The notes below the pieces were generated by a model, which saw only the letters and a program-made list of their open reading frames with translations, ran no database searches and was not told where the DNA came from. A stretch of 64,000 nucleotides of DNA from Catonia carolina (Eukaryota > Arthropoda > Insecta > Hemiptera > Achilidae). The stretch is taken from the NCBI GenBank assembly GCA_035578175.1, contig JAQMRL010000001.1:430851545-430915544 (forward strand), read 5' to 3'. Below are positions 4,371-63,319 of this stretch, one piece after another. Every line of letters starts with the position of its first letter. The first letter of the stretch is position 1. The position numbers and the translations under genes are program-made.

Positions 4371-4758
4371 GTTGTTCAGGTCATCAGATGAAAGGCTGGT
4401 TTGAATCACTACAGGTTTTACTACGTAAAACGAGGAGTGAGGTGGTTTACTATTGCCATCCTCACTGAGTGGAACAGTACGCTTATCAGCATCCCAGGCT
4501 TTCTGAAAAGCATCTACTTTTCAGCCAGCAAATGACACCTTCAGTTCATTCACCACAAGGTCTGGCTGTAGACTATAATGAAATTTATTACTCTTAGAAG
4601 AGAAAACTCTGCTGACGAGTGTCTTTAACACTTCTTTTTAACGCTTCAGTTATATAATTGGCTCACCATGTGACAAGAAACACAGCTATTTTTTGTATCC
4701 TGAAACTAGCGGATCGAGTGTAGCCTAAATAATTTAACACTCCAACTGTCTGTTATGG
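4371..4758 (-). repeat. R400 interspersed repeat, full-length copy
   Basis: A member of an abundant ~390-bp non-coding family. In this orientation it runs from 'gttgttcaggtcatc' to 'caactgtctgttatgg'. It shares the 'gtaaaacgaggagtgaggtgg', 'cctcactgagtgga' and 'ctgtataatgaaatt'-type blocks with the other copies. No terminal inverted repeats and no coding potential. TAGCCTA at 4721-4727 is an insertion relative to the sister copies. Confidence 0.85.
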
Positions 4759-5930
4759 TTATAAGGTCCAGTATAAAACATAATTACATTTTCTTTTTAA
4801 AGAGGCTTTTAAAGTGGAACAAAATTAAAACTTACAGAGGGTAAAAATTGTACTGGCTACTGGGGAGAAGATCTTCATCAGTCTATAACAAACACCTGCT
4901 TTAAAAACAAATGCTAAATCCTTTCCAGTTGTTTGAAAAGTTTTATAAAAAGAAGATCAGACTGGTGAATTATTTGGCGTATCCTGTATAGGCCTAGTAT
5001 AGATAGTGAAGTCACGAGATTGCCTTTTGCGTATGTAAGGGCTGTGAGGAAGGGAAGTGAAATATTTGCAGTGCTACGAACTTCAACAGTGAGACACTAC
5101 TCGTACATTTCACTACCATGCAGTTCCTACTACATTGTGTAAGCTGTAATTTATTCCGAGAAAATGTTTTCTTCATAAACCTTATAAGAAATAAATGTGA
5201 CATGTATTGCCTATAGCTTAATTACATGACTAAAAATGTTTGATTTACTGTAATTACGAATGAATCGCCTTCTTTACTATTGCTTTCACCGGCGTTTTCA
5301 TTATCAGTCTCTCTAGTATCTACCTAACCGTTTTCTATTTTTTACCAGGAGTCAACAAAACTGTTAAAAAATAGCTTCTTCACGTCCTTAATTTCCTTCT
5401 TTATTTTTCGAATTGTGGAAAGAATAACATCACAGTAGTTAGCCGCTCACTCACTGCTTTTGTTAAGAGGCACGGATAGGCATTTTTGTTTAGCTTCAAC
5501 TTCACAACATTTTATTACATTGCATATTAGATTTCGTTCAGAACTGTGAATAGTTCGAACACATTTTCGAGAAATGGACATTTCTGTTTACGGTACAAAC
5601 AGTTATATTCGTACAGTTAACCTACAAAAGGTTCTGCGATATATTGTATATGCTCTGGGTATAGTATAAGTTGTTATGTTTGTCGTACTGAAATTAAAGC
5701 AATCGCGCATGCGCACTGATGTTTTCTCCCTGTACTCCTCGTTGCAAACAAGAGCAAACTCGTGACTCAAGTGACTATAACATATTAATGTGAGTCTTCG
5801 CCCCTAAGACAGAGAGGAAGAGAGGTTTAAAGATACGGACAAGTTTTGCTGGCGTAGGTTCTTGCGAGTCCCATGCACAGCACATGTAACAAATTACTCC
5901 ATTCTGAAAACATTAATGTGATACACTAAC
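4759..5930. other. No gene seen
   Basis: About 1.2 kb of AT-rich sequence with no motif-bearing frame and no repeat identified against the rest of the window. TAGGCCTA occurs at 4989. Confidence 0.5.
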
Positions 5931-5933
5931 ATG

Positions 5934-5990
5934 ACTTCCTCTTGCCAATGTGAATAATGAAAAATATAACCTATGTAAAATTAACGACAC
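5934..5990 (+). repeat. Fragment of Helentron-like element end
   Basis: 'cttcctcttgccaatg' followed by 'aataatgaaaaatataacc' matches the terminus of the HINE-like family (compare 15616-15660). It is directly abutted by an R400 copy at 6006. Confidence 0.6.
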
Positions 5991-6005
5991 GACCTATTTT
6001 TTTAC

Positions 6006-6401
6006 CCATAACAGACAGGTGGAGTGTTAAATTATTTTCACTCGATCTGCTAGTTCCATGGCTACAAAAAATAGTTCTATTTTTTATCACATGGTCAGCT
6101 AGTTATATGACTGAAGTTTTTAAGAATAGAAGAGGTAGAGGTGTAAAAGACTCTAGTCGGAGCTATCTCCTCTGAGAGTAATGAATTTCACAATTATAAC
6201 TGACTGACCCTGTGGTGAAGGTGTCATTTGCAGGGTGAAAAGTAGATGTTTTACGGAGGGTCTGGCATGCTGATAAGCATAGTCTATTTTTCCACTCAGT
6301 GAGGAAGACAATGGTAAACTATTTCACTCCTCGTTTTACTTACTTAGTAAAGCCTCTAAAAGTTTAAACTAGCCTTTCGGCTGATGACCTAAACAGCAAC
6401 A
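6006..6401 (+). repeat. R400 interspersed repeat, full-length copy
   Basis: Runs from 'ccataacagacaggtgga' to 'gatgacctaaacagcaac', the reverse orientation of the 4371 copy. All diagnostic blocks are present, with small deletions around 6210-6250. Confidence 0.85.
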
Positions 6402-60958: not shown

Positions 60959-62168
60959 AAGATAAGTTTCTAAATTCGTGGCAAAATCAGCAAAAATCTA
61001 TGTTTAAATTCGTGTTCACAAATAAAAATACAAAAACCAACATAAACGGTGACAAAAAATTAATATTTAATACTTTCAATTTGTAGACATTATTTAGTTT
61101 AAATCATCGAATTCAATGTTCTTGTTAATATTACTTTTGAAACCAAATAATGTTTTATAATTTCAGGGAGATATCGTTTGTTTCGTTCGATGTCTTTAAA
61201 TTGTTTACAATATTAAATTAATGATTTACTCTAATTAGTATGCAAAAAGTTCCTATTTTCCCGTCATCGTGTTCTTCAATATTCTGGTTTACTGATCGGC
61301 TTTTATTTAATTCCTTCCCGAAAAACTATATGACAGTAAACGAGCAAGAAACCGTCAAAAGTAAGTTAAACGACTTAGTTAAGTCTCCTGAACCAAGTTT
61401 TACAATAGTACATGTAAATTTGTAAACATTGTACATAAAATAGTAGAACCAAAGATTTTTCTGGTGGTACCATTAATTTCTAACCCCATTTAAAAGAATA
61501 ATACTTGAATGAAAATTTATTGTTAATTTTTACTGACTATGAGTTTCCTTTAAGTTGCTAATTTATTTATTTTTATTAACTTGTTTCGAAGGACTACGAT
61601 ACCACTGTTGACCAACAAATTGAATACCAAATAATTTTTGTGAGATTTCAGCCATAGCCATTTTTCATACTTTAAACTAAATTTTGGTTTCTTCTTTGAC
61701 GGTTAAAATGAAAAGATGGTTTTGAATGTTGTTGTTCGTCACGTACCAGGGTGCTTCTGTTACGGCTCGGAAGATCTTTAATTGTAAACGTTGAATAATT
61801 TGGATGTTTAAGTTACGTGGTGCGCTCCGTAACTGGATACCCCTCTATAAAGTTAGTGGTATTTTTATTTATTTTGTTTTTTTGACGCTTTTAATTGAAA
61901 GTTTAGTATCTGTTGTTACAACAATTTTATAATTTCTAAATATTTTTTAAAATTTTTATTATAGATTTACTGCAATTAGTTACTTAAAACTAACGAACAG
62001 TTTTTCTTTAGCGATAATATCCCCCCCCCCATGTATATAATTATGCAGTCACCCACTGGTGCTAGCACTTATTTTCTAATGTTACATACAGTGTTCTATA
62101 AACACTAGAAATATTAATTTTTTAAATCTCTAACTGAAACGTATTGTTAATCTACTAACTTAAGTATA
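60959..62168. other. No feature seen
   Basis: AT-rich intron sequence with a short C-run near 62020. No gene. Confidence 0.5.
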
Positions 62169-62447
62169 GTATTCAGACGAACTAATGTCCCCTAGCCGTG
62201 GGAGTGAGAGCATGCATAACGCTCTCACTCGCACAACCCATACGCACCGTTCCAACAACATTGTCTTTAATTTTACTCATGTTTGTGAGCAAGCGTTTAT
62301 GCACGCAGTAAACTAACAAGCAAGATAACAACTGTAGTATGTTTTCAGATTTGGATTATAACGGTAAAGACCTTTAAGCGCATGCGTAGTTATGCCACAT
62401 ATCTCCCTCTCACTCGCTCGGCTATGGGACATTAGTTCGTCTGATAC
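62169..62447 (-). mobile_element. MITE with TIR 'cagacgaactaatgtccc', copy 2
   Basis: 279 bp, the same length as copy 1 at 50802-51080 but in reverse orientation. TIRs 'attcagacgaactaatgtcc' and 'ggacattagttcgtctgata'. Few differences from copy 1, so both inserted recently or one was copied from the other. Confidence 0.87.
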
Positions 62448-62506
62448 CTATAACTATACGTATAACTTAAAAATAGCCTAACCATTAGTTTTAGAATTTC
62501 TAAATC

Positions 62507-62990
62507 TTCTTCTTCTTCTTCTTCTTCACTACAGGGTTTAGGCGAATCGCCTGTTCCGGTCTCAAAATTTTTTTTGAAATTTTCTTAAGGACAGCTACCA
62601 TCTTTTTCTGGGTCTTCAAATATCTCTTCGGCCAACCGGCCTGTACCTCCACACTTCCTTACGTATACGCCCGTTAGGCATTCTTTCCAAATGTGCCAGC
62701 CATCTCTGCCTGTTTTCTGTTATTCGGTCTTCCAACTTGAAGATGTTCAATTCCTTACGCACATCTTCATTATATAATCTATCCACTCTTGTACAGCCCT
62801 TTACTGACCTTAAAAAATTCATTTCCGATGCCTGAATTTTCCTTAATTGTTTCCGACTCTTCACCCATGTTTCTGAACCATACAGTAATGTTGGTATTGC
62901 CATCACCTTATAAAATTTTAATCGCGTCTCCTTCCTAGTTTCCTTGGAGGGCGCTCGTCGAATGGTTCCACACACCGACTGGAACTTACT
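62507..62990 (-). pseudogene. LINE C-terminal region, antisense, mostly open
   Basis: The - strand frame 62616-62975 reads MCGTIRRAPSKETRKETRL, then IPTLLYGSETWVKSRKQL, IQASEMNFLRSVKGCTRV, NIFKLEDRITENRQRWLAHL and RIRKEVWRYRPVGRRD. It continues in one frame past 62616 with WPKRYLKTQKK-like sequence. It is the same type of tail as 13852 and 40551 but a different family. It ends in (GAA)n, seen as 'cttcttcttcttctt' on the + strand at 62507. Confidence 0.8.
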
Positions 62991-63319
62991 AAGTTCTAAG
63001 AATTTCTAAATATGACGCTAAATTTATAAATAAAGCTTGAATTACTTTCCGGAGCTTGCAGTCAACACTACAGTCCTACAATTAGCCAAGAAGATCCCTT
63101 GGCCAGAGACGTTTTAAACGTCTGTGCTGAGTACCCAGTATCGCCCTAGTGTACATATTTCGTATGAGAGGGTTATCATGTAATTCAAATTTGTTGTGCA
63201 TCGCCTTGTAGGCCTATAGTTGTTTCGCGAGAACATTTACGTATGGAGTTTTTTTGTCTTTGTGCAACATTAAGTTTGTGACGTAAGTTTTGTTTTTAAG
63301 AAAATTATTTTGTTTTCAG
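62991..63319. other. Intron end upstream of the homeobox exon
   Basis: No repeat recognised. It ends in a T-rich tract and the CAG acceptor at 63317-63319. TAGGCCTA at 63209. Confidence 0.5.

Follow-up and report, generated by a model that had tools for sequence, protein, structure and literature searches.

Abundant GGC and GGCC inserts between TA dinucleotides in the genome of Catonia carolina, probable excision footprints of a Tc1/mariner-type transposon

Introduction

The footprint of the transposon Sleeping Beauty has a core of CAG or CTG, whereas those of Tc1 from C. elegans, which leaves a 2-nt overhang, have cores of CA, TG or CATG. The transposases of Sleeping Beauty and mariner make their cuts three nucleotides within the element, which yields 3' overhangs of 3 nt, and end joining then produces footprints made of the letters of these overhangs (PMC7827188); for Tc1/mariner elements in general, footprints of 2-4 bp have been described (PMC7913693). 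In rice, excisions of DNA transposons, Mariner among them, have been detected by genome comparison, with overhangs derived from the element ends; of 94 excisions from all superfamilies together, 8 retained only the two target copies, the others showing flanking deletions or filler (PMC4423477). Here we analyze a stretch of 64,000 nt from the insect Catonia carolina (Hemiptera, Achilidae; assembly GCA_035578175.1, contig JAQMRL010000001.1, positions 430,851,545 to 430,915,544; hereafter the window), in which tiny inserts with the cores GGC, GCC and GGCC recur at TA dinucleotides, and which we interpret as a probable record of transposon excision.

The inserts resemble Sleeping Beauty and mariner footprints in that TA is duplicated and three letters with complementary outer bases stand between the two TAs; they differ in their core (GGC/GCC), in a second strong product, GGCC, which we ascribe to 2-bp annealing, and in their very large number within one genome. 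With Tc1 they share the possibility that two retained ends yield a 4-nt palindromic core, although here that core is GGCC and the 3-nt form is the commoner one. The rice excisions described in PMC4423477 were likewise found by comparing sequences, but the scars in C. carolina are uniform. An earlier reading of the window made from its letters alone (the sequence-only reading) knew of no mechanism for such inserts; footprints built from overhangs have in fact been published for Tc1/mariner elements (PMC7827188, PMC7913693), and what is new here is the density and scale of the scars and a source element that was not found in the sequence fetched. Our search of the open-licence literature found no paper on genome-wide TAGGCCTA or TAGGCTA scars, and among the matches listed for texts containing TAGGCCTA there was no title on the subject.

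Results

The motif TAGGCCTA, with the core GGCC, occurs in the window exactly at the 20 places noticed in the sequence-only reading and nowhere else. A random expectation of about one had been estimated there; 100 dinucleotide shuffles gave a mean of 0.53 (maximum 3) and 40 runs of an order-3 Markov simulation a mean of 1.35 (maximum 5). The shorter form, TAGGCTA or TAGCCTA, was counted 46 times on both strands, compared to means of 5.08 (maximum 13) in the shuffles and 9.15 (maximum 18) in the simulation. Expressed as cores between two TAs, these are 46 GGC/GCC against 5.3 expected and 20 GGCC against 0.6 expected, cores of fixed sequence whose length lies within the 2-4 nt of Tc1/mariner footprints. 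When the GGCC form was set aside, GGC was flanked by TA on both sides 46 times and by the next listed pair of flanks 13 times, which ties the GGC and GGCC excess to the presence of TA on both sides.

The same spectrum was found beyond the window. In a sample of 200 kb, taken from contig C1 as 20 stretches of 10 kb at even spacing (3-383 Mb; the 200-kb sample), TA-flanked GGC/GCC was present 42 times against 14.6 expected, and TA-flanked GGCC 19 times against 1.53. In the whole genome, a single assembly of 1,471,388,699 bases (1.47 Gb) in 142 contigs, TAGGCCTA occurs 131,189 times, whereas the control palindromes ATCCGGAT, ATGGCCAT and TACCGGTA occur 10,015, 10,393 and 11,652 times, respectively; TAGGCTA occurs 129,936 times on one strand and 129,968 on the other (259,904), and its reversed control 42,980 and 42,598 times (85,578). 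Both forms thus stand above their control words genome-wide. Scaling the expectations of the C1 sample to the genome leaves about 150,000 GGC/GCC and about 120,000 GGCC sites above expectation, some 270,000 in total. The window is a dense region, with TAGGCCTA at 0.3125 per kb, 3.5 times the genome average of 0.089 per kb.

Alignments between repeat copies show that these motifs arise when a single TA becomes TA-core-TA. Clean empty copies with a single TA were seen for GGCTA, GCCTA and GGCCTA inserts, in agreement with the earlier claim that each insertion duplicates TA, and all 10 GGC-type sites of the window that lie within an alignment have at least one partner without the insert. Gaps of this kind following TA were aligned for TAGGCCTA at 15949-15956 (GGCCTA missing from the copies at 19368, 36776 and 39966), 20839-20846 (private; empty copy at 4239), 25071-25078 (in a mariner copy; empty copies near 53124, 58454 and 59981) and 48366-48373 (with an additional A; the copy at 33192 is empty), and for TAGGCTA at 48407-48413 (+ strand; private, empty copy at 33160), 4721-4727 (- strand, reading TAGCCTA on +; private, empty at 9327 and 22730) and 24743-24749 (+ strand; private). 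The first six had been described correctly from the letters alone. At 24743 the partners near 52857 and 59655 lack both the insert and the TA, being A-rich where TA would stand, so that one substitution is needed; the insert is also absent from at least one partner at 21619 and at 8560, the partners of the latter aligning poorly. The TAGGCCTA at 22104-22111, which had been taken for a hexamer insert as well, proved to lie within a private 11-bp difference (ACTTATAGGCC) with no clean hexamer, and the TAGGCTA at 21619-21625 (+ strand) adjoins TAGGTA within a private 9-bp difference, a possible double scar (TAGGTAGGTAGGCTA, 21611-21625); each of these two differences may hold two events.

For a quantitative comparison, the window without its two tandem arrays was pooled with loci L123-L148, the mutually overlapping loci L121 and L122 serving as partners only. 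In this pool 21 of 137 GGC-type sites could be aligned, of which 10 were private, 1 mixed (TAGGCCTA at 8560-8567, with 11 partners empty with TA and 2 carrying the same letters), 4 shared and 6 other. Private sites of the pool include TAGGCCTA at 63209-63216 (2 empty partners) and TAGGCTA at 20649-20655 (- strand). The site at 15949 was classed as shared, with two pooled partners carrying the same GGCCTA and 18 others gapped, and those at 21619, 22104 and 25071 as other, on account of an indel that was longer or lay close by. Private insertion thus accounts for 10 of 21 GGC-type sites. Of 599 control TA-NNN-TA sites, 18 were private and a further 10 mixed, and of 670 control TA-NNNN-TA sites, 9 were private and a further 12 mixed. 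Among 18 chosen G/C-rich control cores, 101 sites were alignable and 7 were private, 4 of these being GAC/GTC. Nor do the repeat families as a rule contain the motif with a deletion shared by the other copies, as most alignable sites of the window have the insert in one copy and lack it in at least two.

A catalogue of private insertions revealed a common form for the cores. Of 13 private 5-bp insertions that duplicate TA, 12 have complementary outer core bases (P ~5e-6, taking as reference how often this holds among all TA-NNN-TA sites in the sample), the cores being GGC/GCC in 5, GAC/GTC in 4, AGT/ACT in 3 and AGA in 1; with GGC/GCC left out, 7 of 8 are still outer-complementary (P ~0.001). 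The related insertions in the window have the cores GAC (4569-4575 and 43389-43395), GTC (6280-6286) and AGT (36833-36839 and 60670-60676), all on the + strand, and there are two further private TA insertions with the cores GGGCC (8147-8155) and GG (7602-7607). The GC-only core (TAGCTA) is not in excess in the pool (46 versus 49.9), and genome-wide the fully unannealed product TAGGCGCCTA does not rise above background (200 versus 178 for the reversed control).

The sites also show a preference for certain targets. Outside the two TAs, a purine precedes or a pyrimidine follows at 91 of 132 ends, compared to 61.8 +/- 5.6 expected and a maximum of 83 in 20,000 samples. An outer G is enriched twofold both in the window (47 versus 22.6) and in the 200-kb sample (45 versus 22.1), whereas T precedes 13 and A follows 19 of the 66 window sites, the corresponding values for all TA sites being 38.6% and 38.0%.

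Along the window, 35 of the 66 sites fall between 20 and 36 kb (P = 2.6e-5 per TA site). Their density in repeats is below that in the rest of the window, not significantly so (P = 0.08); 56 of the 66 lie outside the repeats aligned within the window, and the sites are spread over several unrelated repeat families. The remaining exact matches to TAGGCCTA are at 4989-4996, 13554-13561, 16680-16687, 17697-17704, 18276-18283, 19897-19904, 20190-20197, 21359-21366, 27566-27573, 29131-29138, 34280-34287, 36544-36551 and 56337-56344. Those to TAGGCTA are, on the + strand, at 3223-3229, 12836-12842, 13887-13893, 14911-14917, 22627-22633, 25349-25355, 25560-25566, 27686-27692, 27722-27728, 27835-27841, 28633-28639, 29728-29734, 31573-31579, 31848-31854, 34234-34240 (followed by GGGGCCTA, together TAGGCTAGGGGCCTA, 34234-34248), 34393-34399, 34678-34684, 34887-34893, 36340-36346, 41883-41889, 48778-48784, 49950-49956, 54291-54297 and 56945-56951, and on the - strand at 4110-4116, 6512-6518, 10330-10336, 22399-22405, 23090-23096, 27117-27123, 27638-27649 (two overlapping copies, TAGCCTAGCCTA on +, a double scar), 29052-29058, 33823-33829, 34730-34736, 35185-35191, 35986-35992, 43032-43038, 45142-45148, 57656-57662 and 62474-62480. 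The adjacent or overlapping sites at 21611-21625, 27638-27649 and 34234-34248 look as if one TA had been hit twice.

A source for the inserts was sought by scanning for terminal inverted repeats beginning TA-GGC, TA-GG, TA-GCC, TA-GAC, TA-GTC, TA-CAG or with any start, and among the large TA-bounded gaps between repeat copies; neither search yielded a GGC-ended element. An inverted repeat with TA-GCCGG in locus L128 was dropped as a source, as by eye the repeat continues outward beyond the TA. Matches to DDE_3 and Transposase_1 are plentiful in the genome, and the loci fetched come from the top-scoring matches to two Pfam families, 150 scored for each, so that a source may well have been missed. 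Mariners gave 27,199 first-look candidates genome-wide, of which 150 were scored; three of five fetched have ends TA-CGAGG and the other two have unclear ends. Eight further transposase loci comprise one CAG-ended copy and seven without clear ends, and one fetched transposase family ends in TATAAC.

Two other groups of elements are of interest. A Tc1-like family with ends TACAGTACCGCTC is represented by two copies (L149:513-1876 and L150:513-1876) that are 100% identical over 1,364 bp, and a 350-aa open frame is found with equal score at more than 20 places in the genome; this family is probably active now or was very recently. Elements with matching inverted ends TA-GGGGAGACCGGGG and differing interiors were found at L170, L171 and L172 and likewise at L136:4664-6960, and TAGGGGAGACC occurs 229 and 225 times in the genome (454 exact) versus 67 for the reversed control; judging from these shared ends, the elements may be mobilized by one transposase clade. 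The L136 element bears some resemblance to pogo-like transposons; two short pieces of it had no match in Pfam. Elements ending in TA-GGGGAGACC exist, and are no more than a candidate source.

The window itself carries a TA-flanked element at 9670-11016, which ends in CAGGGACCGGCAGAAAA and contains part of a transposase related to, among others, proteins named DD41D transposase. For a transposase fragment of the window, the named relatives among the best 120 of 2,838 matches are from arthropods, many of them Hemiptera. Another feature is a 2.1-kb imperfect palindrome (842-2964), 80% identical to its own reverse complement; it is composed of units repeated in tandem, CACCGCGGTTTATTTGTCTTCCTCC for example, and has a smaller inverted repeat (1699-2029) at its center. 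When viral and genome contigs were scanned for relatives of two proteins of the window and of one repeat core, there were none. Paired TAGGCCTA motifs in viral contigs (at least 120 stretches) were rejected as a parallel, the loci showing other kinds of clustering; TAGGCCTA clusters such as those at L089:4561-4793 (7 within about 230 bp), L080:2626-3912 and L029 look like a different phenomenon.

Discussion

The recurrent insertion of GGC-type cores at TA is confirmed, and we consider it likely that the inserts were left behind as footprints when a cut-and-paste DNA transposon of the Tc1/mariner type, specific for TA, was excised. The sequence-only reading had compared them to minute Tc1/mariner-style insertions, a likeness that is apt, but the inserts are better understood as residues of the exit of an element than as its entry. 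Such an element would enter at TA, duplicating it; at departure its transposase would cut a few nucleotides inside each end, leaving on both chromosome ends a short 3' overhang from the element terminus, and end joining would close the break with the overhang letters between the two TAs. If the element started with 5'-GGC, the overhangs would form G-C pairs at their outer positions and a G-G mismatch between them, to be repaired to GGC or GCC (TAGGCTA/TAGCCTA), whereas overhangs that slipped would pair by two bases, GC, and be filled in to GGCC (TAGGCCTA). An overhang of GCC would instead predict TAGCTA, which is not in excess. Because each cut-and-paste jump would add a scar and no copy, neutral scars would accumulate for as long as a small active population persisted, and at a level copy number they could far outnumber the copies, so that many scars and few copies would not contradict each other. 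Excision by a transposase, the length and sequence of its overhang and the element itself are what we infer from the inserts.

Several results weigh against this interpretation. No TA-GGC-ended element was found in the window, in the 200-kb sample or among the fetched transposase loci, which are a small part of the genome content, and the CGA/TCG footprint predicted by the TA-CGAGG ends of the mariners is not in excess in the pooled sample (36 versus 33.2); abundant mariners without such an excess indicate that copy abundance does not predict scar abundance. Of the catalogue entries, 13 of the 35 with five bases and 7 of the 14 with six duplicate TA; the entries are not independent, some of the remainder being alternative placements of the same event. 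In raw counts, the ratios for outer-complementary cores other than GGC lie between 0.79 and 1.39, and a core without outer complementarity, AAC/GTT, has the highest ratio apart from GGC, 1.66. In the 200-kb sample there are further TA-flanked words above the simple expectation (ATAA, 133 versus 44; CCGC, 15 versus 2.7), and 4 of the 21 alignable pool sites are common to several copies. Finally, four catalogue entries are private inserts with the core GG or CC, and TAGG and CCTA are in some excess when separated by one or two bases: on both strands TAGG-N-CCTA was counted 78, 16 and 16 times at N = 0, 1 and 2, versus 4.3 expected for each, and 8, 2, 2, 4, 8 and 2 times at N = 3 to 8.

These last two points fit better with the same class of event through a different chemistry, in which the source ends in TA-GG, as the TA-GGGGAGACCGGGG elements of this genome do, and a 2-nt GG overhang is left on each side. 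In the last steps, retention of both overhangs would give GGCC, trimming of one by a single base GGC or GCC, and loss of one GG or CC, as in Tc1. However, the commonest product would then require the loss of one base, retention of one more G is uncommon (over both strands, TAGGGGCCTA 1,075, versus TAGGAGCCTA 704), and a few hundred exact element ends stand against some 270,000 scars. We regard a GG overhang as a tentative alternative; as it is a variant of excision by a Tc1/mariner-type element, our confidence in the one overlaps with that in the other.

A process without any element, with TA opened and GGC or GGCC added or templated by a repair pathway or by an enzyme such as a domesticated transposase, would agree with the failure to find a GGC-ended source in the pooled sequence (about 288 kb) or the fetched transposase loci. 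It appears unlikely, as the other outer-complementary private insertions at TA (GAC/GTC, AGT/ACT) point to several elements rather than to one fixed addition, and as under cut-and-paste transposition the scars could in any case far outnumber the copies.

It is very doubtful that an ancestral motif was deleted from the other copies, or that a functional motif is kept by selection: a few sites are indeed common to copies (the four shared and one mixed of the 21), but most alignable window sites are occupied in one copy and empty in at least two, and the sites belong to several unrelated families or lie outside the aligned repeats. A library or assembly artefact, which might be suspected because GGCC palindromes are restriction sites, is equally hard to credit, since the inserts come in three product forms, duplicate TA, favor certain targets and show the same spectrum in the 20 stretches of C1. 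Least probable of all is the addition of head-to-head telomere repeats (TTAGG/CCTAA) by telomerase at breaks, raised in the sequence-only reading, since the coincidence of the letters TAGG and CCTA is outweighed by the outer bases (G enriched, T and A below the 38-39% of all TA sites where TTAGG needs them), by a single TTAGGCCTAA in the window and by the prevalence there of GGC/GCC over GGCC (46 versus 20). Excision of PIF/Harbinger elements, for which PMC4423477 gives terminal inverted repeats GG(G/C)CC and the target TAA/TTA, was rejected, as the duplication here is the two-base TA and outer T..A is depleted.

Returning to excision by a Tc1/mariner-type transposon, it is conceivable, if still speculative, that one low-copy lineage jumped often enough to mark about 1% of the TA sites of the window and to leave some 270,000 scars in the genome; a bolder version would dispense with the element in favor of a TA-directed enzyme adding GGC or GGCC. 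Transposition history is usually read from surviving copies, whereas excision scars would count the jumps themselves, including those of elements with no surviving copy nearby, and would caution against taking any short palindrome for a binding site because it is over-represented. If our interpretation is right, the scars of C. carolina would register transposition neutrally, keeping a tally of many more jumps than the surviving copies do, and would form a closely spaced series of end-joining products, all from one fixed overhang and open to dating, from which the germline excision rate and the choice of repair (3-bp mismatched versus 2-bp annealing) would be measurable by sequence comparison alone.

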